NCBI RefSeq assembly: GCF_025136295.1
Contig: NZ_CP062788.1
Location: forward strand, 2,084,001-2,148,000
Reading direction: 5' to 3'
Length of the DNA: 64,000 bases
Origin: Aestuariispira ectoiniformans
GTDB lineage: Bacteria > Pseudomonadota > Alphaproteobacteria > UBA8366 > Aestuariispiraceae
Shown: in pieces, positions 7,299 through 24,722 of the stretch
How the letters are laid out: the number at the start of each line of letters is the position of its first letter
Numbering within the stretch: the stretch's first letter is position 1
Notes under the pieces: generated by a model
Database searches by the model: none
Seen by the model: only the letters and a program-made list of their open reading frames with translations
What the model was told of the DNA's origin: nothing
Translations under genes and position numbers: made by a program

Positions 7299-7931
7299 TC
7301 AGTGTGAGTTGGTGGGTAGTGGCGAGTAAATCTCTCCGAAAGCCTCCAGGCGCCTCTTCATCTCATTCCGGTCCATGCTTGCCGTAATTTTCCGCATTCG
7401 CTCGTGATCGGCTTTCCGATATGTATGGTCGCCCCATTCCACCTGGACCGGAGGGAGGGGCACGTCGGTTTTTGCGAGTTTCGGGGCGAGCTCCGAGAAT
7501 AACGACGCCGTGGCGGAATAGGCGGCTATCAGAAGGTCGCCGAGGTTACAGCCCGGAGGCACCGCGAATGTGCCCGTGCCCACAATTTCCCCGGCATCCA
7601 CCGTTGCTGTCATGCGGTGAGCGGTGGCCCCGAATGTTGTTGCTCCATTGTAAATGGCAAAGGAGGCGGGGTGATAGCCCGGGTAAGACGGTGGGGCTGG
7701 GTGGAAGTTGTAGCAGTTTCCATCGAGGCTGGAGATTATCTCTTCCGGGACGATTACCGAGGTGCAAAAGCCAATCAGCCGCCTATGTCGTTCCGGACCG
7801 GTCCGGCAGAGCCGTTTAAGGTCTTCAAGAGAACCTGCGTGGCTGATTTCTGCTGACCCGGCGTAAGGGCGCAGCAGGTCGGACAAAAATGGGAATTCGG
7901 TTTCCCCGGTCAGGAGGATGATGTCAGGCAT
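7299..7931 (-). CDS. Formyltransferase-family protein (Formyl_trans_N fold), possible sugar N-formyltransferase
   Basis: 210 aa. The segment NCYNFHPAPPSYPGYHPA contains the N-x-H-x-S/A-type active-site region of formyltransferases (Asn and His visible). GATAHRMTATVDAGEIVG further on matches the conserved His/Asp-containing region that binds the folate and closes the catalytic site. The protein is shorter than methionyl-tRNA formyltransferase (about 310 aa) and lacks its C-terminal tRNA-binding domain, so it more likely formylates a small molecule such as an amino sugar. It lies 48 bases downstream of flaF on the same strand and converges with flbT. A role in the flagellin sugar is inferred only from position. 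The ribosome site is weak. Confidence 0.75.
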   Translation of the reverse strand: MPDIILLTGETEFPFLSDLLRPYAGSAEISHAGSLEDLKRLCRTGPERHRRLIGFCTSVIVPEEIISSLDGNCYNFHPAPPSYPGYHPASFAIYNGATTFGATAHRMTATVDAGEIVGTGTFAVPPGCNLGDLLIAAYSATASLFSELAPKLAKTDVPLPPVQVEWGDHTYRKADHERMRKITASMDRNEMKRRLEAFGEIYSPLPTNSH

Positions 7932-9776: not shown

Positions 9777-10061
9777 GTTGTTAAAGGGAACGGGGTGGGC
9801 GGTGTTGAGGTATGTTTTTGCCTAGCGTGCCAGAAGAATCTGTTTGCATTTTATGTATGTTGTAAGCCATTGATTTTATGTATAGTTTTTGGTTTTATTT
9901 ATCGAGGCGATAGGCAAAAACTGCCATAAGAGGTGGCTTCGCTGTATCGGGAGGGTTGAAAAAAGTGCCGATCTCAGATATCAATTTTAACACGTACTCA
10001 AAGAGTGCGAGGGCAGAAGGCCCAAATTGCTAGGCAAAATATTCCAGAAAGGAATAACCAA
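9777..10061. other. Intergenic leader of the first flagellin gene; no sigma-54 promoter seen
   Basis: About 285 bases between the flgL promoter and flagellin 1. No GG-N10-GC match with TGGC was found on the plus strand. A weak sigma-70-like pair, TTGTAA (9860-9865) and TATAGT (9881-9886), has a short 15-base spacer. The absence contrasts with flagellin 2. Confidence 0.4.
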
Positions 10062-10961
10062 ATGAGTGATATTGCTCTTACAGCTGCACAACGCGGCTCC
10101 CTGTTGTCTCTCCAGAACACACAGTCCCTGAGTGAACGTACGCAAACCCGTCTGTCGACCGGTCGTAAGGTCAACAGCGTGGTTGATGACGCCGTTAACT
10201 ACTTTAAAGCAAAAGGCCTGACCGACCGCGCGTCTGACTTTAGCTTGAAGAAAGACGGCATCGGCCAGGGGATTAGCTCCCTGAACTCTGCTTTGAACGC
10301 TATCGAAGGTATCGACAGCCTGCTCAAGCAGATGAAAGGTATTGCAGAGGCAGCGAAATCACAGACCACGACGGAACGTAAGTCTGCCAACAACCAGTTC
10401 ACGGAAATCGGGAACCAGATTTCCCAGTTGGTGGAAGACGCCTCCTATCAGGGTCTGAACCTGCTTAACTCCACGAACTCCACATTGGACGTGTCTTTCG
10501 GTATTCGTACCGCTTCCAAGCTGCAGGTGCAGGGTCTTGACCTGAACAGCAGCGCGGGTGCTGCTGACGGCCTGAAGATGTTCACCATCAATGCCTTTTC
10601 TTCCAGTGGCGATCTGGTATTCTCCGCTTTTGGTTCGTCCAACGGTTTCTCCGCTTTGGGGGCCAACAACTCCAACACGACGTTGGCTGATGCTGTTATC
10701 ACAAAGCTCGACAACGCAGTTTCCACGCTGCGTGGTCAGGCAGCATCCTTGGGTGCGAACGTTGCTATTTTGCAGACCCGTCTCGACTTCACGAATTCCT
10801 ACGTGAACGAGCTGACGGTTGGTTCTGACAAGCTGACCCTGGCTGACCTGAACGAGGAAGGTGCAAACCTGGTTGCACTGCAGACTCGTCAGCAGTTGGG
10901 TATTCAGTCTCTGGCTATTTCCGGTCAGCAGCAGCAGGCAGTGCTGTCTCTCATCGGCTAA
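10062..10961 (+). CDS. fliC: Flagellin (copy 1)
   Basis: 299 aa from ATG 10062; the frame opens earlier, but GAAAGGA precedes this ATG and the product then aligns end to end with copy 2. The conserved N-terminal domain (RTQTRLSTGRK, NYFKAKGLTDRASDF) and C-terminal domain (VAILQTRLDFTNSYVNEL, LALQTRQQLGIQSL-type) form the filament core. The short central part (about residues 165-225), rich in Ser/Asn/Gly, is the exposed domain and the likely glycosylation target. It is followed by a perfect-stem terminator. Two decoration transferase genes lie just beyond copy 2. Confidence 0.96.
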   Translation: MSDIALTAAQRGSLLSLQNTQSLSERTQTRLSTGRKVNSVVDDAVNYFKAKGLTDRASDFSLKKDGIGQGISSLNSALNAIEGIDSLLKQMKGIAEAAKSQTTTERKSANNQFTEIGNQISQLVEDASYQGLNLLNSTNSTLDVSFGIRTASKLQVQGLDLNSSAGAADGLKMFTINAFSSSGDLVFSAFGSSNGFSALGANNSNTTLADAVITKLDNAVSTLRGQAASLGANVAILQTRLDFTNSYVNELTVGSDKLTLADLNEEGANLVALQTRQQLGIQSLAISGQQQQAVLSLIG

Positions 10962-10983: not shown

Positions 10984-11016
10984 GAAAGGCCTCCCATTGT
11001 GGAGGCCTTTCTTCTA
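10984..11016 (+). terminator. Intrinsic terminator after flagellin 1
   Basis: Perfect 11-bp stem (GAAAGGCCTCC / GGAGGCCTTTC, 10984-11011) with a 6-base loop, followed by a T-rich stretch. It separates the two flagellin transcripts. Confidence 0.88.
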
Positions 11017-11121: not shown

Positions 11122-12021
11122 ATGTCTGATATCGCCCTGACTGCTGCTCAGCGAAATTCGCTCCTGTCTCTGCAGAAGACGCAGACTTTGAGCGAGCGGA
11201 CGCAAACCCGGCTCTCCACAGGTCGGAAGATCAATAACGTCGTTGATGATGCCGTGAACTACTTTCGAGCCAAGGCGCTGACCGACCGCTCCGAAGACTT
11301 CGGTTTGCGTAAGGACGGTATTGACCAGGGTATCAGCGCCATGAACTCTGCATTGAATGCGATCGAGGGGATCGACCGCTTCCTGAAGCAGATGAAAGGT
11401 ATTGTCGAGGCAGCCAAGTCGCAGTCCACCGGCGAGCGTCAGTCCGCCAATACCCAGTTCCAGGAGCTGGGTAAACAGATTTTCCAGCTGGTAGAGGACG
11501 CCTCCTATCAGGGGTTGAATCTGATCGGTTCCACGAACGCCACTTTGGATGTCTCTTTTGGTGTTCGTACGGCCTCCCGCCTTCAGGTGCAGGGGCTTGA
11601 CTTGAATAGTTCGGGGCTTGCAGGCGGGCTGGGGTTGTTTTCCGTTGCGGCTTTTTCCCCCGCAGGGAATACCTTCAATATTTCTGCATTCGGTTTGTCC
11701 AACGGTTTTACCGTGATTGGCGCGAACAACAGTAATAACGCGGCTGCAAGCGTTGCTATTGCCCGTCTGGATTCCACAATCTCCAGGTTGCGTGGTCATG
11801 CGGCGAACCTGGGATCGAATGTGGCGATCCTGCAGACCCGTCTCGACTTCACAAATTCCTATGTGAATGAACTGTCCACTGGGTCTGACAAACTGACCCT
11901 GGCGGACTTGAACGAAGAAGGCGCAAACCTGGTTGCTCTGCAAACGCGCCAGCAATTGGGTATCCAGTCGCTGTCGATCTCCGGTCAGCAACAGCAAGCC
12001 GTTCTGTCTCTGTTGCAGTAA
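11122..12021 (+). CDS. fliC: Flagellin (copy 2)
   Basis: 299 aa, the same length as copy 1 and nearly identical to it in the terminal core helices (LSTGRK, NYFRAKALTDRSEDF; SYVNELSTGSDKLTLADLN). The centre (about 165-225) differs clearly, as expected for two filament subunits with different surfaces. AGAAAGGAAC precedes the ATG. It has its own perfect sigma-54 promoter and its own terminator, so the two flagellins can be expressed at different times or levels. The transferase genes downstream start 156 bases later. Confidence 0.96.
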   Translation: MSDIALTAAQRNSLLSLQKTQTLSERTQTRLSTGRKINNVVDDAVNYFRAKALTDRSEDFGLRKDGIDQGISAMNSALNAIEGIDRFLKQMKGIVEAAKSQSTGERQSANTQFQELGKQIFQLVEDASYQGLNLIGSTNATLDVSFGVRTASRLQVQGLDLNSSGLAGGLGLFSVAAFSPAGNTFNISAFGLSNGFTVIGANNSNNAAASVAIARLDSTISRLRGHAANLGSNVAILQTRLDFTNSYVNELSTGSDKLTLADLNEEGANLVALQTRQQLGIQSLSISGQQQQAVLSLLQ

Positions 12022-12046: not shown

Positions 12047-12087
12047 TTGGGGGAGCCGGCATAATGCTTGGCTCCCCAACCCTTTTT
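12047..12087 (+). terminator. Intrinsic terminator after flagellin 2
   Basis: Stem TTGGGGGAGCC / GGCTCCCCAA with one bulged G and a loop of about 12 bases (12047-12079), then CCCTTTTT. It separates the flagellin from the glycosyltransferase genes. Confidence 0.8.
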
Positions 12088-12177: not shown

Positions 12178-14094
12178 GTGTGCGTTTTTGTGACTACTGC
12201 AAATTTAACAGACTTCTTGTCGAAGGCTTTGGATGAGGCCGAAAGTGGGGCATTCGTTCAGGCGTTGGAAGCCCTGCAGCAGGCGTCACAGATGGAGCGC
12301 AATTCTTCGTTCATCTATCATGTTATGGGGCTGGTTGCGGTTCGTATGGGTGAAGTGCCGAAGGCAATTGACCTGTTCAAACAAGCACATCAGATGGCAC
12401 CGGAAATGATGGAACATGCGGAAGCACTGTCCATACTTCACGCACGTACTGGTAATGTCAGCGATAGTTTGTATTACGGCAAATTGTCCACTGTCTTGAA
12501 GGCATCCCCCCTGAAGTCCTTGTTGTTGCCGGAATGGCTCGGTTCATTCGAGGGCAGTTTTACCGAAGTTGAAAAAGCACCTTTTCTGGAACGGGGAACA
12601 AAAGCGCTTCGAAGAGGATTGCTGCGTCGCGCGCTGACCGAGTTTCAACGGGAAGCCGAATTGCATCCTAACCATGGTGAGCCATGGCGCTTGCTGGCAC
12701 AGGTGTTGCGGCTTCAACGGCGACCAGTGGAAGAAGCCCTGATTTTGCAGGGGTTGGAAGATTCAGGTGACCTCGTTGCGTATGACTATGCAGAAATTGG
12801 TCACGTACTGAATGCTCTGGGCCGTCGCCAGGAGGCTAAAGCCGCGTATCAATCGGCCAAGGAAAGAGAACCGGACAATCCGGATATTTATGCTCAAGAA
12901 ATTGCGGACCTCTATCATTGCGAGGACCCCGTCACGGATGAAATCCTCGATGCCGAAACTGCATGGGGGCAGGCTTTTGCTGCGGACAATCGAGAGGGGA
13001 GTGCAGGAGAAACAACAGCAAATGTCCAAGGGACGCTGACCGTTGGTTTTGTGTCTTCCCGATTTAGATTAGATGCCGGACTGGATCACCTGCTGCCGCT
13101 GTTTCTTCATCCGCATAGAGGCAGGCTGAAGATCAACCTCTATTGCTACAATGCCTTCGACGACGCAATGACGCGACGGGTTGCCGGGAGCGTGAACGAG
13201 TTCCAGGACCTGAGGAATGTGGACGAAAAAACTGCCGCCACCATAATCAGGAATGACGGTGTGCAGGTTCTGATTGATCTGGATGGTGTCGCAACCCCCC
13301 ATCACACGAGGCTTTACGGAGAAGGGGCCTGTCCCATCCAGTTGCGCTACAACGGTTTGGCTGCTTCCGCCGAAGCCATGGGATATACTGCGGCCTTCGG
13401 GAGCGAGTTCTCCTACTCCGGAGAGCAAAATGACGCATGTTTGGTGAAAGGCGGCTTTTTTGGGTTGCCGTCAGCCTCACAGTCGGAACAGGAAACCCTG
13501 AGTTCCGCAGGCGGTCTGAAAGTCCTGGGATGGATGCCTTGCTTCAACAAGGTGAATGATCATTCCTTGGAAATGTTGAAGAAAATCACGCAAAAATTCG
13601 GTGACATATCGGTACGCGTTTTTTCAAACAGCGTAGGCGGGCCCCAAGGGGTTAATGAGCTTCTAGGGCTGATTTCCAGGCATGGATTACAGCCACTTGT
13701 CGAGTTTTCGGACTGGAGCGCTGACATGGAAGAGGCAAGGTCATCGTTTTTTTCCGGCGTCGACTTGATGCTGGATATTGGCGGTGATGCAGGCACAGAT
13801 AATTTGCTGAGTTCGGTGATGTATGAATTGCCGACGGTAAGCATTCCAGGCCGTCTCCCCGAGGCTCGGGAAGGAAGTTCTATTCTGCAGGCCATCGTTG
13901 GTGACGGTTGGATATGCAGGGACGTTGATGACCTTGTTGCAAAACTCGAACGCTGGAAGAACACACCAGGTCTTTGGAAAAAAGACCGGTCAACGTTTCA
14001 GGAGGATGTTCGGCTTTCCCGGGCGCCACAATATCTCAGTGATCGGTTCTCCGCCTTGGAAGAGGCGCTCTTTCAATTGGTGGGACGAAGCTAG
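12178..14094 (+). CDS. TPR plus GT41/SPINDLY-like protein, probable flagellin glycosyltransferase (FlmG/FlbA-like)
   Basis: 638 aa from GTG 12178; a second GTG at 12190 is equally possible, since no strong ribosome site decides. Residues 1-250 are tetratricopeptide-type helical repeats, including a GEVPKAIDLFKQA repeat and another at GRRQEAKAAYQSAKEREPDNP. From about residue 285 the fold matches O-GlcNAc transferase/SPINDLY: GFVSSRFRLDAGLDHLLPLF, then YCYNAFDDAMTRRVA, VQVLIDLDG and a C-terminal MLDIGGDAGTDNLLSS donor-site segment. FlmG of Caulobacter, which has the same TPR-GT layout, decorates flagellin with a nonulosonic acid. Odd features: the family GHT motif after the LVDLAG-like strand is replaced, and the FNxxxKI motif reads CFNKVND (about 456-462), so the usual lysine is Asp. 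The enzyme may use another residue or be inactive. The base composition seems lower in G+C than in the flagellar genes. Confidence 0.8.
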   Translation: MCVFVTTANLTDFLSKALDEAESGAFVQALEALQQASQMERNSSFIYHVMGLVAVRMGEVPKAIDLFKQAHQMAPEMMEHAEALSILHARTGNVSDSLYYGKLSTVLKASPLKSLLLPEWLGSFEGSFTEVEKAPFLERGTKALRRGLLRRALTEFQREAELHPNHGEPWRLLAQVLRLQRRPVEEALILQGLEDSGDLVAYDYAEIGHVLNALGRRQEAKAAYQSAKEREPDNPDIYAQEIADLYHCEDPVTDEILDAETAWGQAFAADNREGSAGETTANVQGTLTVGFVSSRFRLDAGLDHLLPLFLHPHRGRLKINLYCYNAFDDAMTRRVAGSVNEFQDLRNVDEKTAATIIRNDGVQVLIDLDGVATPHHTRLYGEGACPIQLRYNGLAASAEAMGYTAAFGSEFSYSGEQNDACLVKGGFFGLPSASQSEQETLSSAGGLKVLGWMPCFNKVNDHSLEMLKKITQKFGDISVRVFSNSVGGPQGVNELLGLISRHGLQPLVEFSDWSADMEEARSSFFSGVDLMLDIGGDAGTDNLLSSVMYELPTVSIPGRLPEAREGSSILQAIVGDGWICRDVDDLVAKLERWKNTPGLWKKDRSTFQEDVRLSRAPQYLSDRFSALEEALFQLVGRS

Positions 14095-14097
14095 AAC

Positions 14098-16110
14098 ATG
14101 CCGGTTGGTTTAACTATGAAGTATGATCCGGACCTTTACGAACGTAATCTGCAATGCCTGGAGCAACAACAGCCTGCCTTGGTGGGGCTGCTTCGTTCGC
14201 TGGAAAACATTGCAACAAAGGTGGTGGAGGATGAGGACGGCGGGCTGAACCTGGATCTGGGGCATACCCGCTTCTATGAGAGAGATGCTGAGACCTTTGC
14301 CAAGGACCAGCTCAAACACTACTGGGAACACCCAGACAGGATCGACGTTTCTGGTGCAGGCCTGGGGGTGACCAAGGAGAAGCGGGATATTGATAGCACG
14401 CGGTCACTGGCGGAACGTATGCTTTTGCTTTCCAGAAACTGGATGACGGAAAATGGCCTTGTGGGCAAGTTTGAGTTGAAGGATGCCGATGCAGGCTTTC
14501 TCTTCATACTTGGCATCGGGCTTGGCTGTCATGTTGATTCTCTTCTGGAGGATGCGCAGGTACAGCATATTGTGATCGTGGAACAGTTTCCCGAATTTCT
14601 GTACCACTGCCTGCATCTGCATGACCTTTCCGATTGGTATACTTCCGTTGAGGCAAAGGGGGGATCCTTGATGTTCCTCCTGGGCGACGATCCTTCTTTT
14701 TTGACGACCAATCTGTATTCGATTGTAAAATTCAAGGCCTTTGAAATAACGGATGGGTCATATTTCTACGTTCACTATAATTCCTACTTCCTCAAGCAAG
14801 TTGAACGCGAATTCCGGGAAAAAATCTCGCTGATTACAGCCAATCCTGGCTTCTTCGAAGACGAAATCAAAATGCTTTCGAATTGTTTTCGAAACATCAC
14901 GTCCTATGACCATTTGACGTTTGTTGTGAAAACACGGCTTGAGAAAGAGACACCTATTGTCATCGTCGGTTCGGGCCCGTCCCTGGATACGTCGATTGGC
15001 CTTATCAAAGAAAATAGAGACAAGATTATCGTCTTATCTTGCGGGACCGGTTTAGGGTCTCTTCTGGGGCATGGGGTTACTCCGGATTTTCATGCAGAAT
15101 TAGAAAACACTCCAGGGCCGCTGGAGGTTGTGGGTAATCTGTCAAAACAATATGACTTGTCCCCGATAACCCTGATCGCCTCGAATACGATCAATCCGGA
15201 GCTGCCAAAGCTTTTCAAGCGCAGGATTTTATTCTTCCGGGATTCGGTGACGTCGACTTATGCCTTCGGCGGACCGTATGGGGCGGTTTACAACGCGGCG
15301 CCGACCGTGACAAATGCGGGGGCTCGTCTTGCTGTCGGCCTGGGCTTCAGGAAACTCTATCTCGTTGGAGTGGATTTGGGTTCCCGTGAAAAAGGAAAGC
15401 ATCACTCTGCCCAATCCGTATATGTTGCGGACAAGAATTTTCTCGCGACACATCCGGGCCATAAGGCTGCCTCGAATTTCAAGCATCAGGCGCGCGGAAA
15501 TTTTGGTGGCACAATCCAGACAAATCAGAGTTTCCTGTGGTCTTCGACCATGTTTCAGGCACTGAAGGAATATGACGACAACGTCGAACTCGTCAATTGC
15601 AGTGACGGGATCAGAATTTCCGGTGCCACCCCGCAGCTTCCGGAAACCGTACAGTTCAAGACAAGTGTTGCCCGACGTAACCGCGAACTGGCTATGCTGA
15701 TACAGGAGCATGATGAGGGCGCGGGCAGGCTGCCGATCAATGTCTCGGATATGGAAAAAATAGACAGGAAGATGGCGGCATTCTACGGCGGGATTGAAAA
15801 TGCCCTGGATGGTTTCAGTCCTAGCAAAGCCGATTTTTTCAAGCTCTATGAAGTCTTGCGGGAGTTGACTTACAAGAGCGATAAAGACAACAGTGTCGAA
15901 AGCCGCGTTGTTAGGCAGTTCCATATTGGAACCGTCATGATGTTTATTCAGATTGCACATATAATATTGCGCCGCCTCCCGGAAAACGTGCGTCCCGGCT
16001 ATCTGGAATTCTTCCGTGATCAGTTTGAAGCCTTTCTGTCGGAAATGAGAGAGAAGGGACTGGAATGCACCGGCGGAATTCTCAAGCAGGCAAAAGAACT
16101 TTCACAGTAG
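14098..16110 (+). CDS. maf: Motility-associated glycosyltransferase Maf (DUF115 / MptE-like)
   Basis: 670 aa (664 if the in-frame ATG at 14116, beginning MKYDPDLYERNL, is used). The central domain carries the Maf signature IVIVGSGPSLD (about residues 285-295), with upstream FLFILGIGLGCHVDSLL and downstream TNAGARLAVGLGFRKLYLVGVDLG. These fit the MAF_flag10 / 6-hydroxymethylpterin pyrophosphokinase-like fold. Maf proteins transfer pseudaminic or legionaminic acid to flagellin Ser/Thr. It lies 3 bases after the TPR-GT gene and 15 before the NeuB-type gene, so attachment and sugar synthesis are co-transcribed. Having both a FlmG-like and a Maf-type transferase in tandem is unusual. Confidence 0.9.
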   Translation: MPVGLTMKYDPDLYERNLQCLEQQQPALVGLLRSLENIATKVVEDEDGGLNLDLGHTRFYERDAETFAKDQLKHYWEHPDRIDVSGAGLGVTKEKRDIDSTRSLAERMLLLSRNWMTENGLVGKFELKDADAGFLFILGIGLGCHVDSLLEDAQVQHIVIVEQFPEFLYHCLHLHDLSDWYTSVEAKGGSLMFLLGDDPSFLTTNLYSIVKFKAFEITDGSYFYVHYNSYFLKQVEREFREKISLITANPGFFEDEIKMLSNCFRNITSYDHLTFVVKTRLEKETPIVIVGSGPSLDTSIGLIKENRDKIIVLSCGTGLGSLLGHGVTPDFHAELENTPGPLEVVGNLSKQYDLSPITLIASNTINPELPKLFKRRILFFRDSVTSTYAFGGPYGAVYNAAPTVTNAGARLAVGLGFRKLYLVGVDLGSREKGKHHSAQSVYVADKNFLATHPGHKAASNFKHQARGNFGGTIQTNQSFLWSSTMFQALKEYDDNVELVNCSDGIRISGATPQLPETVQFKTSVARRNRELAMLIQEHDEGAGRLPINVSDMEKIDRKMAAFYGGIENALDGFSPSKADFFKLYEVLRELTYKSDKDNSVESRVVRQFHIGTVMMFIQIAHIILRRLPENVRPGYLEFFRDQFEAFLSEMREKGLECTGGILKQAKELSQ

Positions 16111-16125
16111 TAAAGGTTGCAGACG

Positions 16126-17145
16126 ATGAAGCTGTTTGGAAAAGACCTCGCAAAAGAAGTTGTGCTGGTTGCCGAGATCGGTGTGAACCACGAGGGTGAT
16201 CCCGAAAAAGCTTTTGAACTCATGCGGCTGGCGGCACAGGCGGGTGCGGATGCGGTCAAGTTTCAGTCCTATACGGCCGAACGCTTTATTTCAGCGGTAG
16301 ACCCGGATCGTCTGGAACGTGTTGGGCGATTTGCCCTGGATGAACAGACCCACCGCGAGTTGGCTACTGAAGCGAAGTCACTGGGGGTCAGCTTCTTCTC
16401 CTCCGCGATTTCGGAAGACTGGGTGCCTCTGCTGGCGGAATTGGGCGAGGCGATCAAGATTGCCAGTGGTGATCTGACTTTTGAGCCTGTTATTCGCGCA
16501 GCCACGGAAAGCGGTCGCAAGGTTTTGCTATCGACGGGTGCGTCTGACATTGATGAAATTGACCGGGCCGTGGCCTGGGTCAGGGATGTTGTCGGAGACG
16601 AAAACCTGTCGTCGCGATTGCTGTTGATGCATTGTGTTTCAGCCTATCCAACGCCGATGGAACAGGCGAATTTTCTGTCTATTCCGTTCCTGCAACAGAG
16701 GTATCATCCCGTAGCGGTCGGATACTCCAACCACGTTATTGGAACAGAGGCCGCGATAGCTGCCGTTGCGCTGGGCGCACGCGTGGTGGAAATGCATTTC
16801 ACAGATCAAAAGGACGGGCGGGAATTCAGGGATCATAGCCTTTCTGCAGATGCTGCCGATATTCGATACTTGACTGAAATCTTGCCGAAGGTGGCAGCCG
16901 GAAGGGGCACTTGGGGGAAACCTGTTCAGGCGTGCGAAGAAACGATGCCGGAAATTATCCGCAAAGGTGTTGTTGCCGCGCATGATCTGGAGGCGGGAAC
17001 TGTGCTGAGCCAGGACGATCTGATGTTTGCCCGCCCGGCATCGGAGTATTCCGCAGGAGAATTGCCACAGTTGATTGGGGCGACGTTGAATATGCCCTGC
17101 AGCAAAGGACACCCCATACTCCGAAGCTCTGTGGAGCGTTCCTAG
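16126..17145 (+). CDS. NeuB-family sugar synthase (nonulosonic acid synthase), SAF-domain containing
   Basis: 339 aa from ATG 16126 (AAAGG 9 bases upstream; an earlier TTG is open). The N-terminal TIM barrel has VVLVAEIGVNHEGD, DAVKFQSYTAER, IKIASGDLT, LLLMHCVSAYPTP and YSNHVIGTEAA-type loops, the PEP/metal-binding signature of NeuB/SpsE/PseI/LegI enzymes. The C-terminal part (about 280-339, RKGVVAAHDLEAGTVL) is an antifreeze/SAF domain. It condenses PEP with an N-acyl-hexosamine to form a nine-carbon acid. The product (sialic, legionaminic or pseudaminic type) cannot be told from sequence reading. It is downstream of maf and supports a nonulosonic acid on the flagellins. Confidence 0.88.
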   Translation: MKLFGKDLAKEVVLVAEIGVNHEGDPEKAFELMRLAAQAGADAVKFQSYTAERFISAVDPDRLERVGRFALDEQTHRELATEAKSLGVSFFSSAISEDWVPLLAELGEAIKIASGDLTFEPVIRAATESGRKVLLSTGASDIDEIDRAVAWVRDVVGDENLSSRLLLMHCVSAYPTPMEQANFLSIPFLQQRYHPVAVGYSNHVIGTEAAIAAVALGARVVEMHFTDQKDGREFRDHSLSADAADIRYLTEILPKVAAGRGTWGKPVQACEETMPEIIRKGVVAAHDLEAGTVLSQDDLMFARPASEYSAGELPQLIGATLNMPCSKGHPILRSSVERS

Positions 17146-17184
17146 GCATCTGAAAATTCAATAGAAAGAGCAGTCTGTCGGATC

Positions 17185-18003
17185 ATGACCAGGTTAAACC
17201 CGCCCTGCGAAGCATGCGAAATGTGTGGGGGCATTGAGTGGAACTTCGAAGCCCGTTTCACGGAGCCTCCCAAGGGTGAGACCGATCTCGGTCTTGCGCC
17301 GTATTGTCGTGAGGTTTGGTCATGCGGTGGCTGCGGGCATGTGATTAACCATCACGATATGGATCTCAGCAAGATCTACAGTAAGAAATACTGGGATCAG
17401 ACTTACGCCGACAGGGTTCGCAGCACCTATGATCGAATAATGTCCCTGCCGGAAGACCAGTCGGATAACCAACAGCGTGTCGCTTTTATCAATGAATACT
17501 GGGCCCTGCATCATACGGGGCAGGCCAGAACCTTGCTGGATATCGGGGCTGGATTGGCAGTGTTCCCTGCCGCGATGAGAGAGACGGGCTGGACCTGTAC
17601 GGCGTTGGACCCGGACCCGCGTGCGGCGGAGCATGCGAGGCAGGTCGCGCAGGTTGATGCCATTGCCGCGGATTTTATGGAAGCTGATCTCTCCCGGAAG
17701 TTTAGTCTCGTTTCCCTGAACAAGGTGTTGGAACATGTCCCGGACCCGGTTTCCATGCTGGGCCGGGTAAGGGAAGTTTTGCATCAGGATGGTTTGGTCT
17801 ATCTGGAATTGCCGGATGGCGAGGCAGCGTTAAAAGATACACCTGCCAGACAGGAGATGTTTCTGGAACATTACTGCGCCTATTCCATGGCGTCCATGGC
17901 GCTTCTGATCCTTAAATCTGGTTTCCGCTGTGACTATCTGGATCGTCTGCGCCAGCGGAGTGGGAAATACACGCTGCGGGCCTTTTTGCGACGCCCTCAA
18001 TGA
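17185..18003 (+). CDS. Class I SAM-dependent methyltransferase with N-terminal zinc-ribbon-like Cys pairs
   Basis: 272 aa. Four or more cysteines in the N-terminal 60 residues (CEACEMCG, then CGGCGHV) suggest a zinc ribbon, as in sugar C- and O-methyltransferases. Motif I (TLLDIGAGLAVFPAAM) begins near residue 117; a downstream LVSLNKVLEHVPDP segment matches motif IV/post-IV of Methyltransf_23. It ends at 18003, overlapping the GNAT start by 4 bases (ATGA). It is 39 bases after the NeuB gene. A likely role is methylation of the flagellin sugar or a precursor, inferred from position only. Confidence 0.82.
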   Translation: MTRLNPPCEACEMCGGIEWNFEARFTEPPKGETDLGLAPYCREVWSCGGCGHVINHHDMDLSKIYSKKYWDQTYADRVRSTYDRIMSLPEDQSDNQQRVAFINEYWALHHTGQARTLLDIGAGLAVFPAAMRETGWTCTALDPDPRAAEHARQVAQVDAIAADFMEADLSRKFSLVSLNKVLEHVPDPVSMLGRVREVLHQDGLVYLELPDGEAALKDTPARQEMFLEHYCAYSMASMALLILKSGFRCDYLDRLRQRSGKYTLRAFLRRPQ

Positions 18004-18701
18004 CACACCCTTCCTATATAAGCGAACAGCGGTTTGAGGCTGATTTCCTGAAAGGTCCTGTTTGGCGTCTGGATAAAGCGGAAATGGCTCAGCAGGCTGT
18101 TGCTGACGCCAGACTGGCGGATGTTCGGCTGATGGGGTGCCGTCTGCCGGAGCCGGACGATCGGACTGGATATCTTGAGTCCGCAGGTTTCAGAAAGGTT
18201 GAAACTCTCGTCTCCTTGGCGCGGCCTGTTCGAAGAGGCGTTCCCATGCCCGAGGGTGTTCGCGCTGCGCGATCAGAGGACGCAGATGCTGCAGGATGCC
18301 GTAGGGTTGGGGAGGCCGCATTCACGTCGGATCGATATCATGCCGACCCCGATGTCCCTGACGAGGCAGCAGATGCATTGAAGGGGGCCTGGGCGTATAA
18401 TGCCGTGATGGCGCGCGCGGACCGCGTGTTCATCTATGACGAAGGGAACGGTATTCTTGGTTTCAACGCCTGTTTGTTGAGGGGACAAACGGTTGTTATC
18501 GACCTTATCGGGGTGATGCCGGGACGGCAGGGAGCCGGGATCGGTGCAAAGCTGCTCCTGGCGATGGACGCAGATTACCAGGGACTCGCCGATAGGGTGG
18601 AAGTCGGAACCCAATTTTCCAATTCTGGGTCTCTCTCATTCTACAGGAATGACGGGTTTGAAGAATTCCGACGAGAACAAACCTGGCATTGGACGGCGTA
18701 G
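18000..18701 (+). CDS. GNAT-family N-acetyltransferase (sugar amine acetyltransferase-like)
   Basis: 233 aa. The C-terminal half is a GNAT domain: VVIDLIGVMPGRQGAGIGAK, with the R/Q-x-x-G-x-G/A acetyl-CoA loop, then the NSGSLSFYRNDGFEEF end strand. The N-terminal half (about 1-90) resembles the first domain of two-domain WecD-like acetyltransferases and carries no second CoA loop. It overlaps the methyltransferase by 4 bases, so the two are translationally coupled. In a nonulosonic pathway such an enzyme acetylates the 4-amino sugar made by the DegT aminotransferase, which here is encoded on the convergent strand. Its stop abuts the stop of the next gene with no spacer. Confidence 0.83.
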   Translation: MTHPSYISEQRFEADFLKGPVWRLDKAEMAQQAVADARLADVRLMGCRLPEPDDRTGYLESAGFRKVETLVSLARPVRRGVPMPEGVRAARSEDADAAGCRRVGEAAFTSDRYHADPDVPDEAADALKGAWAYNAVMARADRVFIYDEGNGILGFNACLLRGQTVVIDLIGVMPGRQGAGIGAKLLLAMDADYQGLADRVEVGTQFSNSGSLSFYRNDGFEEFRREQTWHWTA

Positions 18702-19403
18702 TTACTGGTCGAGTTTGCTCAGTATTTCATCCAATGAAGCTTTAACCGGGTCGTCGAGTGAACTGATTACCTGTTTCACCCTCTGCAAGTCTTCCGGTGT
18801 GTCTACGACCAGGCGAATGTCGGCATTAGGGGGCTTTCCGCTGTTGGGCAGATTGCGGATGTCGAAGGATGCCGCGTTTTGATAGGCAAAAAGCGTCACA
18901 TGTTCCAAGAGAGACAGGTCCGCGGTTTCCTCGCATATCCGGCGCATTGCTGTGTGGCTGATGATTTCCGCGCTGGTTCCCAAGGGAAAGGTCCGGGGAA
19001 ATACGTTAGTTGCAAGGTCGCAACCTGTTTCCAGGAAAACGTTGATAACCTCGTCTACGACTTCCGGATCGACCAGTGGACTGTCGGCACAGATGCGCAC
19101 AAACCAGTCCAGTCGATGTGCATCCATGCAATCAAGACAGCGTTTGGCCACATTGTCCAGGTCGCCACGGAAAAGCGGGATACCGTGTTTATCGGCAATG
19201 CCGGATAAGGGAGAATCGATCTCCCTATCCGTCGTTGCAAGGATTAACGGAAGTCCGTGGCGGCTTCGTTTCAGGCGTTCAATGGCAAGGTCCAAGGCAC
19301 ATTGCCCATTGCCCAGGTCCAACAGCTGCTTGCCTGGCAAACGCCGGGAATCAAGACGGGCAAGCAGGACAATAGCACCTCTGCCTCGCTGTGTTTTGTC
19401 CAT
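18702..19403 (-). CDS. SpsF-like cytidylyltransferase-family protein
   Basis: 233 aa. The N-terminus AIVLLARLDSRRLPGKQL is the nucleotide-binding signature (RLxSxRLPGK-like) of the CMP-KDO/CMP-sialate synthetase superfamily, SpsF branch. FVRICADSPLVDPEVVD carries the conserved acidic metal site, and DIRLVVDTPEDLQRVK is the typical C-terminal motif. The expected role is to activate the acid made by the NeuB-type enzyme as a CMP-sugar. It is the last gene of the long minus-strand unit flgI...flgK-sugar genes, 12 bases after the epimerase. Its stop touches the GNAT stop. SpsF enzymes are less well characterised than NeuA, so the substrate is open. Confidence 0.82.
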   Translation of the reverse strand: MDKTQRGRGAIVLLARLDSRRLPGKQLLDLGNGQCALDLAIERLKRSRHGLPLILATTDREIDSPLSGIADKHGIPLFRGDLDNVAKRCLDCMDAHRLDWFVRICADSPLVDPEVVDEVINVFLETGCDLATNVFPRTFPLGTSAEIISHTAMRRICEETADLSLLEHVTLFAYQNAASFDIRNLPNSGKPPNADIRLVVDTPEDLQRVKQVISSLDDPVKASLDEILSKLDQ

Positions 19404-19415
19404 CGCGTCAGGCCG

Positions 19416-20495
19416 TCAGAAAGAATTGGCTTTGTGTTTTGCGCGCTCCCAGGCCTCCACATACCACTCGCAATATTGCTTGTAGCCGACTTCCAGGGGC
19501 CATTCAGGCTCAAACCCGAGGACGTCTTTGGCGCGCTCTGTGGACAGCGTCCCGCGAACCGGTTTGTCGACCATACGCGGGCGTTCCTCAAGGATCGTTC
19601 CCGGCACGACGGATTCGACAATGTCAGCCAGTTCCTTGATCGTCCGGGCGTTGCCAAACGTCAGGTTGAAGGTATTGGAGTGATGGCGACCCTCATGCAG
19701 GGCCAGGGCGCGAACCTGCCCCTGGACCAGGTCTTTGATATAGGTGAAATCCAGACGTCCGTCGCCGCCGCCTTCCAGCAGCAAAGGTTTTCCGGTCAGG
19801 GCATTCTCGACAAATTTCTGGCTGACGCGCTGGCTGATGCAACGCTCACCATAAAGGGCGCTGGGGCGGATGACCGTTGTTCCCAGGTTATACTGACTGC
19901 GATAGGTTCGAACCAGCCGTTCGCCCATGAATTTGGTGTTGGCATAGATGCCTTCCGGGCGGGGGAAGGTGGTTTCGTCGACGGTGTCGCCTTCGAAGTC
20001 CCCATATACCGTGCTGGAGGACATGAACATAACCTGGTTTATGCGGTCGACACGCGGCCGTACCAGTTCCAGCATATTTCGCAGGGTGATCAACTGTAGG
20101 TCAAAGCAAAGGCCCGGTTCTGCCTTGGCATCAACCGCGCTCGCAATGGCGGCCAGATGAACGACTTTCGTCGGTTCATATTCTTCGAAAATCCGCGCAA
20201 GGTCGGTCAGGATACGGGCGTCGCAGTTGCGCAGGTGCACACCGGCATCCCGCAGCATTGAAAACCGTGAAAGAAGGAAGTCCTGATAGGCCTGGCGTTG
20301 GGTCATGTCCTGGCTCGATTGGAAGCAGTTTTCAATCAGGCTGTTGACCATCAGGTTGTCGGCGATCATCACTTCGGCGCCCATCTGGGCAAGTTCCAGG
20401 CCCAGGTTATGACCGATAAAACCGGCGCCACCAACAAGCAGAATACGCTGGCCTTCCAGTTTGGGTTTCAGGCTTTCATAGGGGATATGCGTCAT
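19416..20495 (-). CDS. NAD-dependent epimerase/dehydratase (extended SDR)
   Basis: 359 aa. The Rossmann motif GGAGFIGHNLGLELAQMGAEV begins at about residue 22. VVHLAAIAS, then MFMSSSTVYGD (catalytic Ser/Thr) and YANTKFMGE (YxxxK) give the full SDR active site, so the enzyme should be catalytically competent. Sequence reading cannot separate 4-epimerase from 4,6-dehydratase; no clear dehydratase Asp-Glu pair was identified. It lies 12 bases after the DegT gene and before the cytidylyltransferase, and presumably acts early in making the nucleotide-amino-sugar precursor. A GAGTCAAGAA region upstream gives an acceptable ribosome site. Confidence 0.88.
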   Translation of the reverse strand: MTHIPYESLKPKLEGQRILLVGGAGFIGHNLGLELAQMGAEVMIADNLMVNSLIENCFQSSQDMTQRQAYQDFLLSRFSMLRDAGVHLRNCDARILTDLARIFEEYEPTKVVHLAAIASAVDAKAEPGLCFDLQLITLRNMLELVRPRVDRINQVMFMSSSTVYGDFEGDTVDETTFPRPEGIYANTKFMGERLVRTYRSQYNLGTTVIRPSALYGERCISQRVSQKFVENALTGKPLLLEGGGDGRLDFTYIKDLVQGQVRALALHEGRHHSNTFNLTFGNARTIKELADIVESVVPGTILEERPRMVDKPVRGTLSTERAKDVLGFEPEWPLEVGYKQYCEWYVEAWERAKHKANSF

Positions 20496-20508
20496 TTCTT
20501 GACTCCTT

Positions 20509-21666
20509 TCACGAGCTTCTGCTCTTCACAAGCGCGTCTTTCAACGCTGCGGCAATCCGGTTGACACCGTCTTCAGGCAAATGCGGCCCCAGCGGCAAGG
20601 ACAAGGTCTGCGCTGCGAGCCATTCGGCAACCGGGAACTGCCCCTCTTTGTATCCGTATTTTTCTTTATAATAGGTAAACAGCGGCACAGCCCCGGGATA
20701 GTGCACGGAAAAACCGATCCCAGCGGCCTTCAGATGGTCCATGACCTGATCCCGGTCAATCGACCCATCCTTGGGTAATACGGTATTCAGGCAGTAATAG
20801 CTGGGCTGTGCTGTTTCATGCTGGCCGGGGAAGAGGGTTAATTCTTCAATCTCGGCAAGAGCCGTTGTCAGGGCATTATAGTTGGCCGCGCGGATGGCAT
20901 GAAAGTCGTCCAGACGGGAAAGCTGTGCCAGGCCAACGGCGGCTTCCACTTCACTCATGCGGTAGTTGAAGCCCAACTGGTCTACATCGTAGATGCCGGG
21001 TTTGGCGCGGTCACCCAGGGCGCGGTTGTATCCAAAGGCGCGGCGTTTGCGCAGGGCATCCGCCAAAGCATCGTCATTGGTGGAGACCATACCCCCTTCG
21101 ATCGAGGTCATCTGTTTGACCGGATAGAAGGAAAAGCTGCCCGCCAGTCCCAGGTTGCCTGCCTTCCGGCCCTTATAATCGCTGTCGAGGGCGATTGCGC
21201 AATCCTCGAGGACGAATGCCCCGTGGCGTTCCGCGACGGCGTTGATCCTGTCCATATCACAGGGCGTGCCCAGATAGTGGACCGGCATGATTGCGGCCAA
21301 CGGTTCGTCCTGGCTGTCCAGCAAGTCTGCGGACATATTGCCGGACAAGGGATCCGCATCGACGAAGACCGGCGTTGCGCCCGTCAGTTCAACGCTATGG
21401 GCGGTTGCTACATGGGTCATGGCCGGGACGGCGACGCGATCGCCGGGGCCGATATCCTTGACGAATAAGGTCAGGTGAAGACCTGCGGTACAGCTCGAAA
21501 CCGCAACCGCGTGTTTGGTTCCGATCCGCTCGGCAAAAGCTTCCTCAAAGGCGGGGGTTACTTTGCCATGAACCAGCATCCCGCTTTCCATGACGTCCCG
21601 GATTGCGTCAAGTTCGCAATCGCTGATCTGTGGTTTGCCAAAGGGGATGGGATTGTTTGATGACAT
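20509..21666 (-). CDS. DegT/DnrJ/EryC1/StrS-family aminotransferase
   Basis: 385 aa, PLP-dependent fold type I. The PLP lysine is in SFYPVKQMTSIEGG (Lys about 184), and the pocket motifs VAVSSCTAGLHL, DCAIALDS and MSEVEAAVGLAQL are typical of the family. These enzymes put an amino group on a keto-sugar nucleotide (as PseC, LegC or SpsC do). Between the Gfo/Idh oxidoreductase (16 bases upstream) and the epimerase, it is in the same minus-strand unit as flgK. Together with the NeuB, SpsF-like and GNAT genes, it mirrors the composition of the Bacillus spsC-spsF region. Confidence 0.9.
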   Translation of the reverse strand: MSSNNPIPFGKPQISDCELDAIRDVMESGMLVHGKVTPAFEEAFAERIGTKHAVAVSSCTAGLHLTLFVKDIGPGDRVAVPAMTHVATAHSVELTGATPVFVDADPLSGNMSADLLDSQDEPLAAIMPVHYLGTPCDMDRINAVAERHGAFVLEDCAIALDSDYKGRKAGNLGLAGSFSFYPVKQMTSIEGGMVSTNDDALADALRKRRAFGYNRALGDRAKPGIYDVDQLGFNYRMSEVEAAVGLAQLSRLDDFHAIRAANYNALTTALAEIEELTLFPGQHETAQPSYYCLNTVLPKDGSIDRDQVMDHLKAAGIGFSVHYPGAVPLFTYYKEKYGYKEGQFPVAEWLAAQTLSLPLGPHLPEDGVNRIAAALKDALVKSRSS

Positions 21667-21682
21667 TTAATCAGGTCTCGCT

Positions 21683-22684
21683 CTAGATCGTGTATGTCAC
21701 GTCGACGTTTCGCCTATTTTGAACCGATTCCCAGCAGGCGAAACATATTTCCATGACCCTGAACACATCTTGCGCACCGACGTTGGGTTCCCTGCCTTCA
21801 CGGATTGCCGCGACGAAGTCGGGCAGCAGGTCGCCTTTTTCAACGGCGGGATAGGGGACAGTGAAGGGCTCTTCGTCCTCTGGCCGGTCGCCACGGAAGA
21901 GACGCCCGTCGGGGATGCCGTTTTCGAAGCTGAGCTTGGTTCCATAGAGATTCAGGCTGTGCATCTTATGCCGTTGCGGCCCGAAGGTTGTTGTATTCTT
22001 GGCCAGAGCATCGCTTTCAAAGCGCAGCAAATTGGTCATGACATCCGGGTAGGCAAAGCTGCTTCCCCTTGTTTGTTTCTTTGCGCCCATACTAGTGACT
22101 TCTGTCACCTCTTCACCGATGATCCAGCGCATCAGGTCGATCAGGTGGATGCCGCCGCCATAGGTTACGCAGTAGAAATCCATCTGTCCGCGCCAGCCCT
22201 CGGTGATCTTCCAGAGAATCTGGTGAAGGTAATCGCCTTCCATATAGAAAATGTCGCCGAAGTCACCCCGCTGGACCATTTCGCGTAGCGCGATGAAACG
22301 GGGACTTTGACGCAGGATCAGGTTGGAGGAGATGCGTTTGCCGCTGTCCTGTTGGGCACGGATCACTTTTGCCAGGTCTTCCCGGTTCAAGGTGATCGGC
22401 TTTTCCACCATCACATGCTTTCCCGCGTTGAAGGCCTCGATGACCTGGGCGGCGTGATAGTTATCGTAAGTACAAATGGAAACCGCATCAATGCGCGGGT
22501 CTTCTATAATCTTGCGATAGTCGGTGTATCGTCCGTCCACTTCCTGCCGGTCGGCCACGGCATGCAGCTTTTCTTCGTCCATATCGCAGACAGCGGCGAC
22601 GGTGACGCCGGGGATTTCCCTATAGGCGGCAACATGCCGTTCGCCGACACCCAGGCCGATAACACCTATCGATATTTCTTGCAT
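21683..22684 (-). CDS. Gfo/Idh/MocA-family oxidoreductase
   Basis: 333 aa. The N-terminal Rossmann domain begins IGVIGLGVGERHVAAY; the family's catalytic-loop motif appears as VMVEKPITLNRE (EKP, about 93-104). The C-terminal alpha/beta domain (GGGIHLIDLMRWIIGE) carries the conserved GGG...H...D pattern with Asp and His. Members oxidise or reduce sugars and sugar derivatives with NAD(P). It starts only 13 bases after the flgK stop, so it is presumably translated from the flgK message. The substrate is probably a nucleotide sugar of the decoration pathway. Confidence 0.88.
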   Translation of the reverse strand: MQEISIGVIGLGVGERHVAAYREIPGVTVAAVCDMDEEKLHAVADRQEVDGRYTDYRKIIEDPRIDAVSICTYDNYHAAQVIEAFNAGKHVMVEKPITLNREDLAKVIRAQQDSGKRISSNLILRQSPRFIALREMVQRGDFGDIFYMEGDYLHQILWKITEGWRGQMDFYCVTYGGGIHLIDLMRWIIGEEVTEVTSMGAKKQTRGSSFAYPDVMTNLLRFESDALAKNTTTFGPQRHKMHSLNLYGTKLSFENGIPDGRLFRGDRPEDEEPFTVPYPAVEKGDLLPDFVAAIREGREPNVGAQDVFRVMEICFACWESVQNRRNVDVTYTI

Positions 22685-22697
22685 TTTATCTCACAAA

Positions 22698-24722
22698 TTA
22701 ACGGATCGCTTGTTCAAGGGTGGAGAACATTTCGTCGACCGTCTGGATGACACGGGCCGTGGCCGCATAGGAATTTTGCAGGACTGTCAGCGCCGCCATC
22801 TCGGAGTCGATATCCACACCGACTTCCTGGCGAAGCTGTTCGTCCAGATTGTTATGCAGGGTCATAGAATCTGAATACAGATTGCCGAAACGTTCCGCCC
22901 TTGTGGTTACATCCACGAAGATATCCGATACCAGCCCGGTATAGGAAGTGCCGCTGGTGGAAAAACCGGACCCGTTAATGCCCCGGTTGTTGCCGTTCAT
23001 TGATTGCACAACGCCGGTTGCGGAGGATTTTTTCAGGCTTGCGGTGCCATTGGTCAGCGTGTCGTTTACCCGGAAATTCAGGCGGGTCGCATCAGACAGG
23101 GCAGAGCCGGTTTTAACCTCGAAAAGGTCCAGGTTTTGCTCTCCGGTCTCGCCTCTGTTGGTTACTTCCGCACTGCCGCCGACAAAAGTAAAGCCAAGGG
23201 CAGACAGCGGTGTATTGTTTGTCTGCTGGATATCCAGGCTGCCGCGGGTTGTCGATATCTCCAGTCCACCAGAACTGTTGAGGCGGGCGCGAACACCGTC
23301 AATGTCGTTCAGGTCGTCCAACAGGTCCTGTGTGGAATAGGGAGACGCACCGATTGTGACGGTAACGGCTGCCCCACCGCCAACGGAAACCGAGAACTGA
23401 TCAGCGGCTGCGATACCGGCAAGGGAGGTCAGGTCTGCGTTGCCGGTGATATCCAGGCTGCCCGTGGAATTTTCCTGATTATAGGCGTAGCTGAGCGTCG
23501 GGGGATTGTCCGCCGCCACCGTCGTGGAGGCCCCGAACCCGATTGCTGTCTGGAGGGCACCGGTGGAAACGGCCACTGTCATACCCTCGCCTTCGGTCAG
23601 GATCTGCAATTGGCCATGACCATCGAAGCGGGCAGAGACATTGTCCAGGGCGTTCAATTTCGCCAGTACCGTCGCAGGGGTATCAGCGGCAAGGATGTTG
23701 GCGACCCTAGGCGTGCCGCCCACGGTGACGGTAATCGTGCCAGCCGCGCCAACTGTGGCATTGTCTTCAATGGCGACGCTGCCGCTTGTGCGTGCGGTTG
23801 AATCGTCCATCAGCATGAAGGCCACTTCGTCCAACTGGTTGCGCATTTTCTGAACAACCGCAAATCCACCGTCAGTATTGGCTTCTGCCGCTGTGTCGGT
23901 CCGGATGAAGTCCGTGAGCGATTTCAACTTGCCCTGCGGCAGCAGGCCGCCGGTGATAAGGTCCGTACTGGAATGACCGCTTTTGGTCAGCGCACCGGTC
24001 GAGGTGTCATAATTGAAGGTGGCGGCGTTCAGGTCAACAAGGCTGAGGCCCGTTGAAGACATCACGACAAGATGACCATCCGATGCTTCAAAGGTTTTGA
24101 TGTCCATGATTTCGGACAGTTCTTCCAGCTTTTGATCCCGCAGGTTTTCATTCGCAGAAGTCGGACGGCCTTTTGATTTATCGGAAACGATGTCGTTGTT
24201 CAGACGGTCAATATCGGACAGAAGGTCATTCAGGTCGGATACGGTGCGTGTGGTATCCGTTTTGATTTCCTGCTCTATCTGGTCCAGGCCATCGGAAAGA
24301 CGTGCCATTTCAACAGTGATGTTCTTCGCGGCACTCAGGACCTGGGCCTGTGCGGCGGCGCTTTCGGGCGATGCCTCATACGCCTTCCACGCGGCGTTCA
24401 GGTCTTCCATTTCGTCAGACAACGGGGTCTGCGTCGCGCTGATGCCAAGCAGACTGCTCATCCGCTCGTAGATATCGTTCTGTGTGCCGTAACCGTTACT
24501 GCCTGCGATGGCAGTGGTCAAATCCTGGAAAAGGCCGTTGTTTACAAGCCTCTCGATATCGGCGACGGCAACGCCGCCATGTTGCAGGTTCTGATATTTG
24601 GTCTGGCGGGCGTTGTAATATTTGTTGTTCGCGTTGGCGATATTGTCGGATACCGTCCGCACCGCACTGTTGATCGTGTTGACGGATGTAACAGCAACAT
24701 TCAGCGCTGAAAGCAATGACAT
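22698..24722 (-). CDS. flgK: Hook-associated protein FlgK
   Basis: 674 aa. The N-terminus has the rod/hook family motif as SVNTINSAVRTVSDNIANAN. The C-terminal helix includes VLQNSYAATARVIQTVDEMF. A large, mainly beta middle (about 290-560) explains the length, at the long end for FlgK (about 460-690). FlgK (HAP1) joins the hook to FlgL. It follows flgN (its chaperone) at 42 bases in the flgI-flgJ-flgN-flgK order and is followed at 13 bases by the sugar genes, a strong sign that filament junction and glycan synthesis are co-regulated. Confidence 0.94.
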   Translation of the reverse strand: MSLLSALNVAVTSVNTINSAVRTVSDNIANANNKYYNARQTKYQNLQHGGVAVADIERLVNNGLFQDLTTAIAGSNGYGTQNDIYERMSSLLGISATQTPLSDEMEDLNAAWKAYEASPESAAAQAQVLSAAKNITVEMARLSDGLDQIEQEIKTDTTRTVSDLNDLLSDIDRLNNDIVSDKSKGRPTSANENLRDQKLEELSEIMDIKTFEASDGHLVVMSSTGLSLVDLNAATFNYDTSTGALTKSGHSSTDLITGGLLPQGKLKSLTDFIRTDTAAEANTDGGFAVVQKMRNQLDEVAFMLMDDSTARTSGSVAIEDNATVGAAGTITVTVGGTPRVANILAADTPATVLAKLNALDNVSARFDGHGQLQILTEGEGMTVAVSTGALQTAIGFGASTTVAADNPPTLSYAYNQENSTGSLDITGNADLTSLAGIAAADQFSVSVGGGAAVTVTIGASPYSTQDLLDDLNDIDGVRARLNSSGGLEISTTRGSLDIQQTNNTPLSALGFTFVGGSAEVTNRGETGEQNLDLFEVKTGSALSDATRLNFRVNDTLTNGTASLKKSSATGVVQSMNGNNRGINGSGFSTSGTSYTGLVSDIFVDVTTRAERFGNLYSDSMTLHNNLDEQLRQEVGVDIDSEMAALTVLQNSYAATARVIQTVDEMFSTLEQAIR

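Follow-up and report, generated by a model that had tools for sequence, protein, structure and literature searches.

A probable separate nonulosonic acid route in a flagellin-linked gene island of Aestuariispira ectoiniformans

How could a nonulosonic acid (NulO) be made for flagellin by a set of genes that includes a NeuB-family synthase, and within which domain and curated-family searches find no PseG/LegG/SpsG-type hydrolase, no NeuC and no PseB/LegB/SpsM dehydratase? We investigated this question in Aestuariispira ectoiniformans (family Aestuariispiraceae, whose named members include Aestuariispira insulae and Marivibrio halodurans), in a stretch of 64,000 nucleotides (hereafter the window) that covers positions 2,084,001-2,148,000 of a single-contig, complete genome of 4.36 Mb. 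An island of sugar genes lies there between two flagellin genes and flgK. We think it fairly probable that the island as a whole is a separate, flagellin-dedicated NulO route, its reactions, product and flagellin acceptor being predicted ones. The genes, strands and coordinates of the original prediction were all recovered as open frames with the domains it had named. The features are as follows (window coordinates):

10005..10961, plus strand: flagellin, expected acceptor (PF00669, 1.5e-13; PF00700, 2.5e-6)
10984-11011: terminator-like stem-loop 3′ of the first flagellin
11122..12021, plus strand: flagellin, expected acceptor (PF00669, 5.4e-14; PF00700, 1.1e-6)
12050-12077: terminator-like stem-loop 3′ of the second flagellin
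12178..14094, plus strand: tprGT, tetratricopeptide repeat (TPR) plus GT41-like glycosyltransferase of FlmG-like architecture, predicted flagellin O-glycosyltransferase (TPR, 26-239; Glyco_transf_41, 281-398)
14098..16110, plus strand: maf, Maf flagellin glycosyltransferase (PF20157, 3.4e-47, 161.3 bits; PF01973, 9.7e-31, 107.3 bits; both above cut-off)
16117..17145, plus strand: neuB, NeuB-family synthase of a separate clade, predicted phosphoenolpyruvate (PEP)-dependent NulO synthase (PF03102, 5.9e-57, plus SAF domain)
17185..18003, plus strand: class I S-adenosylmethionine-dependent methyltransferase, predicted sugar methylation (PF13489, 6.7e-19)
18000..18701, plus strand: GNAT acetyltransferase, WecD-like, predicted amine acetylation (PF13508, 8.1e-8; PRK10975 (WecD), 6.2e-12, below cut-off)
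18702..19403, minus strand: spsF, SpsF-like cytidylyltransferase (CTP_transf_3), predicted cytidine monophosphate (CMP)-NulO synthetase (PF02348, 1.7e-17; top solved match the cytidylyltransferase 6oew, 8.9e-28)
19416..20495, minus strand: sdr, extended short-chain dehydrogenase/reductase (SDR), NAD-epimerase type (PF01370, 5e-40)
20509..21666, minus strand: degT, DegT/pyridoxal-phosphate sugar aminotransferase, C4 type, PseC/ArnB-like (PF01041, 5.8e-107; ArnB 8sng, 4.5e-70)
21683..22684, minus strand: gfo, Gfo/Idh/MocA oxidoreductase, kept with the cassette (PF01408, 3.4e-24)
22698..24722, minus strand: flgK, with the Gfo-DegT-SDR-SpsF run directly downstream on the same strand (TIGR02492, 200.2 bits, above cut-off)

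The plus-strand run follows the two flagellins with tight spacing (tprGT, maf, neuB, the methyltransferase and the GNAT gene, starting at 12178, 14098, 16117, 17185 and 18000, respectively), and the minus-strand run flgK-gfo-degT-sdr-spsF has successive gaps of 13, 16, 13 and 12 bases. The two runs converge, with the stop codons of GNAT and SpsF abutting (0 bases between). Both the 13-base gap after flgK and the convergent operons had been predicted, and the layout recurs in the 13 same-family genomes with which we compared it: tprGT and maf are adjacent in 13/13, gfo lies directly after flgK in 10/13, and the convergent pair of runs is intact in 8/13, whereas in the remaining five genomes its halves are separated or fall on different contigs. 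All 13 genomes also encode the SDR (75-84% identity), and the methyltransferase is 50-59% identical in family relatives. Because it is conserved across the family, the layout is not due to chance and, judged from sequence, supports flagellin decoration, a reading that we consider likely. The island shares with known flagellin glycosylation islands a linkage between flagellin genes and those for glycosyltransferases and sugars, conserved across the family; the claim of a NulO-type sugar aimed at flagellin is supported by NeuB, SpsF and two flagellin-type glycosyltransferases lying between flagellins and flgK family-wide.

Both glycosyltransferases are of types predicted to act on flagellin. Maf has the Maf N-terminal and MptE-like domains, and tprGT has TPR and GT41 matches in one protein, the architecture of the FlmG class. 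In Caulobacter, FlmG is a flagellin O-glycosyltransferase and there is no Maf (PMC7591256). By architecture tprGT is like FlmG: a TPR region at the N terminus is joined to a glycosyltransferase domain at the C terminus, the two proteins are of similar length, and both stand in flagellin systems of Alphaproteobacteria. Unlike FlmG, tprGT adjoins maf in every family genome seen, and the donor sugar route differs. In the Shewanella sfm cluster, too, an operon for flagellin modification close to maf includes NeuB and methyltransferase genes; their partners there, however, are a thiamine pyrophosphate (TPP) enzyme, an oxoacyl-acyl-carrier-protein-reductase-like protein and an ATP-grasp protein, and the SDR/DegT/Gfo/SpsF set is not reported (PMC3765264).

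Which kind of sugar is made depends first on NeuB. The island NeuB has the features of its superfamily (PF03102 and PF08666 (SAF) above cut-off, metal-binding histidine motifs), and its GYSxH and ExHFT motifs are conserved and align with the solved meningococcal enzyme; its scores fall below the equivalog cut-offs (NeuB_NnaB: 243.8 vs. 399.65 bits; PseI: 178 vs. 340). In a tree rebuilt without long-branch sequences, it belongs to a clade (support 100/97) separate from the PseI clade (100/100) and from sialate-type NeuBs, and the other two NeuBs of the window genome fall outside this cassette clade. The Asp that replaces Glu134 of the meningococcal NeuB was rejected as a clade marker: it is common in the clade, yet is also found in the genome's own sialate-type NeuB. 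The neuB gene is missing from the operon in three relatives (G002, G006 and G008); G002 and G006 have a solitary cassette-clade NeuB far from the island (at loci L058 and L057, respectively), and none was found in G008, a 94%-complete bin.

Against other curated models of known pathways, DegT reaches 293.7 bits with the PseC model (cut-off 423.5), and the LegB model reaches 51.8 bits on the island proteins (cut-off 475). The SDR active site is of the GalE type (SSSTVYG...YxxxK) and in homologues is invariant except for T/M (SSS[T/M]VYG). In neither the window protein nor its homologues does the active-site motif have the Asp/Glu that we take to be the catalytic acid of 4,6-dehydratases. The AlphaFold2 model of the SDR (pLDDT 91.9) has UDP-glucose 4-epimerase 4zrm as its best fold match (3.5e-24), and motif and model indicate an epimerase/dehydrogenase rather than a dehydratase. 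The Gfo protein has subfamily-invariant motifs SNLxLR, WR, GGxxH and EKP, and the folds nearest to its model (pLDDT 96.5) are mostly oxidoreductases of free sugars. Fold searches with the Gfo and SDR models returned general relatives only and indicated no specific substrate.

These matches bear on the order of the steps. The SDR, Gfo, DegT and GNAT might act after NeuB, on a free or CMP-linked NulO, as KdnB and KdnA act on 3-deoxy-D-manno-octulosonic acid, to place an amine on the side chain, with NeuB using a free N-acetylhexosamine. Such an order would make both a nucleotide-sugar hydrolase and a dehydratase unnecessary, agrees with the free-sugar substrates of most of the nearest Gfo folds, and would suit G002, G006 and G008, which retain the module in an operon without neuB. 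We nevertheless regard it as unlikely, given that DegT most resembles C4 aminotransferases of nucleotide sugars, its similarity to KdnA being remote (240 bits to ArnB 8sng vs. 129 to KdnA 5k8b), that the best matches of the SDR are epimerases of nucleotide sugars, and that M. halodurans would require a source of free N-acetylhexosamine.

Compared with known NulO routes, the island belongs to neither the pseudaminic (Pse), the legionaminic (Leg; LegB-C-H-G-I-F or Sps) nor the sialic acid (NeuA/B/C) pathway. With the pseudaminic pathway (PseB-C-H-G-I-F, as in C. jejuni and Caulobacter flm) it shares a C4-type DegT, a GNAT, a NeuB-family synthase, a CTP transferase and a predicted flagellin acceptor; it differs in having an epimerase-type SDR and Gfo/Idh instead of a PseB-type dehydratase and PseG, and a NeuB outside the PseI clade. 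The proposed resemblance to Bacillus spsC-F turned out to be loose. The island has analogues of SpsC, SpsD, SpsE and SpsF, but the UDP-legionaminic route of B. subtilis (spsC-G/spsM) needs the hydrolase SpsG and the dehydratase SpsM (PMC7439481), both absent here, where an SDR, Gfo and methyltransferase are added, the context is flagellar rather than that of the spore, and NeuB is far below the curated cut-offs.

We then asked how far this combination extends, using an SDR-based scan across genomes that returned 80 loci, many of them from metagenome bins and not independent of one another. Many alphaproteobacteria have the cassette genes clustered, for the most part on a single strand, and so do loci of Nitrospira (L204, L212, L214), Burkholderiales (L219, Betaproteobacteria), Desulfobacteraceae (L222), Oligoflexia (L210) and Anaerolineales (L217), the set recurring almost complete in distant phyla. 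Their content across phyla is spsF, gfo, degT, sdr, GNAT, neuB and AsnB, plus, though not everywhere, an amidotransferase and a methyltransferase. The NeuBs of these loci group with that of the island in the 100/97 clade. Of the 63 other loci 15 kb or longer, 27 carry the full set of SDR, SpsF, Gfo, DegT, NeuB and GNAT; among the same 63, the window genome's PseG is matched in none and its NeuC in two. Neither PseG/NeuC nor a dehydratase was found in the complete related cassettes examined, so that the atypical character claimed for the island, which lacks a dehydratase-type SDR as well, extends to them. Neighborhood maps agree, the layout being kept among the 13 relatives and the cassette recurring in other phyla. 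By gene content, the island is a pared-down version of a larger cassette that is found in several phyla. Literature searches, which covered few subscription journals, found no description of this gene combination.

The same loci bear on whether one sugar or two are made. NeuB and SpsF could yield a NulO while Gfo, DegT, SDR and GNAT yield an unrelated amino sugar, with Maf and the TPR glycosyltransferase attaching one each. Two differing glycosyltransferases do adjoin, the enzymes are split over two operons, and a second SpsF-DegT pair occurs in some loci. On the other hand, the same genes share one strand in Nitrospira, Burkholderiales and Desulfobacteraceae, where NeuB is central and SpsF single, and the cassette NeuB clade and the SDR co-occur closely, which makes two sugars improbable.

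In many alphaproteobacterial cassettes (L159, L154, L199 and others), a second DegT-SpsF pair lies directly after the first SpsF.

Genes unlinked to the island were sought across the window genome by family models. It carries three NeuB genes, that of the island representing a third system. A canonical pseudaminic locus (L004 and L226, C1:40001-74000) encodes PseB, DegT, an amidotransferase with HisH and HisF, a cytidylyltransferase, PseI and PseG (at C1:65411, the sole PseG of the genome) amid glycosyltransferases, and a second locus (L005, C1:3715000-3720000) is a NeuC-NeuB-Gfo-PseF-like cytidylyltransferase operon. The predicted absence of PseG/LegG and PseB/LegB holds for the island and not for the genome, which has PseB, PseG and NeuC elsewhere. 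The Gfo/Idh protein of L005 is a second, different one tied to a NeuB.

Several observations weigh against a separate, flagellin-dedicated route. PseB (508 bits), PseG (301) and NeuC (403) are all above cut-off in the window genome, and PseB and PseG could be lent to the island. M. halodurans has FlaA1-type and RmlB-type dehydratases, so the keto sugar could have a source other than the SDR, and Gfo was not found in the M. halodurans stretches read. Two relatives have several NeuB matches (four in G006, six in G008) yet no recognized PseG/NeuC, which suggests that hydrolases outside both models may exist in the family. Finally, cross-phylum cassettes mostly do not lie beside flagellar genes, and the sugar itself is thus not flagellum-specific.

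The first of these observations would fit an ordinary pseudaminic or legionaminic route with dehydratase and hydrolase (PseB, and PseG or NeuC) supplied in trans by other loci, as would the PseC-like DegT of the island and the use of a dehydratase, SpsM, in B. subtilis legionaminic synthesis (PMC7439481). M. halodurans argues otherwise. Its genome (99% complete) has a single NeuB, of the island type, and no match to the PseG and NeuC models, no PseB/LegB above cut-off was found among ten SDRs scanned, and only two cytidylyltransferases score above cut-off in it, a KdsB-like one and the orthologue of SpsF. Furthermore, complete cassettes of other phyla lack these enzymes, and the epimerase-type SDR is kept everywhere. 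We therefore regard supply in trans by these loci as possible but rather unlikely. Because M. halodurans has only the island-type NeuB and no PseG/NeuC, the island-type route probably needs neither of these hydrolases; the pattern may also be compatible with a general dehydratase acting in trans. The position of the cassette outside the family, usually away from flagellar genes, would in turn be expected of a lipopolysaccharide, capsule or exopolysaccharide pathway that merely adjoins flagellar genes here; since the cassette keeps its linkage to Maf, the FlmG-like enzyme, flagellins and flgK in the related genomes, we consider this very unlikely.

In the separate, flagellin-dedicated route that we favor, an SDR and Gfo would take the place of the Pse/Leg dehydratase and the PseG/NeuC hydrolase. 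The SDR would make a 4-keto sugar without 6-deoxygenation; the C4-type DegT would install an amine that the WecD-like GNAT would acetylate, most probably while the sugar is still the hexose precursor, which would lead to a 7-acetamido group; and Gfo would join a redox step, perhaps including release of the free sugar. NAD-dependent glycosidases of the Gfo/Idh superfamily work by oxidation-elimination and are a precedent for such release. NeuB would condense PEP with the free amino-hexose to a nonulosonic acid, SpsF would convert this to the CMP-sugar, the methyltransferase would add a methyl group, and the FlmG-like TPR glycosyltransferase and/or Maf would put the sugar on flagellin. With the SDR and Gfo proposed as stand-ins for dehydratase and hydrolase, SDR, DegT, GNAT, Gfo, NeuB and SpsF would cover the six Pse/Leg steps. 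The roles proposed for the SDR and Gfo are tentative and far less certain than the route as a whole.

Relatives of the island extend the cassette between neuB and the methyltransferase with an AsnB-type amidotransferase, a WbuX-type N-acetyl-sugar amidotransferase (above cut-off) and usually a formyltransferase. Two other assignments were discarded here: the relatives' 611-aa gene, considered as a TPP enzyme, is the AsnB-type amidotransferase, and their 373-aa gene, considered as a candidate hydrolase, is the WbuX amidotransferase. A small protein of 110-140 aa with the motif RKDWGFYATPSLNGRL and no Pfam match is kept with the cassette (e.g., L204:18429-18851, L222:15843-16241 and L092:11607-11936); it occurs in 20/22 loci with a type-A WbuX amidotransferase vs. 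0/21 with HisF (the loci being related), and somewhere in 13/13 family relatives, the window genome alone among them having none found. It is the sole conserved extra frame among the unassigned genes of complete cassettes, and as a hidden hydrolase it was rejected because of its insufficient size and its association with the amidotransferase.

None of AsnB, amidotransferase, formyltransferase and small protein is in the window island. This joint absence, most simply read as joint loss, suggests that the parts function jointly. Outside the island, the window genome does encode more distant homologues of AsnB and of the amidotransferase. The relatives' cassettes resemble acetamidine formation by WbpG/WbuX with HisH/HisF in holding the WbuX amidotransferase, in some cases with HisH/HisF. 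They differ in that the Aestuariispiraceae amidotransferase is paired with AsnB and the small protein rather than with HisH/HisF, and the window island differs in lacking the module. The mutual exclusion with HisH/HisF and the joint absence point to the small protein as a candidate component of acetamidine sugar synthesis.

Between flbT and flaF (window 7299-7931, minus strand) lies a gene for a 210-aa formyltransferase-fold protein (PF00551), found at the same position in most family relatives with 36-45% identity.

All of this might amount to one distinct pathway without 4,6-dehydratase or PseG/NeuC hydrolysis, in which Gfo would free the sugar by NAD-dependent oxidation-elimination to give a 9-hydroxy 7-amino nonulosonic acid and the acetamidine forms of relatives would depend on the new small protein instead of HisH/HisF; taken jointly, these proposals are doubtful. 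Genome-based prediction of such sugars rests on the presence of PseB/LegB and PseG/NeuC and on the NeuB clade. With a widespread NeuB clade whose partners match no Pse, Leg or sialic acid set, such predictions would fail for many marine and environmental bacteria.

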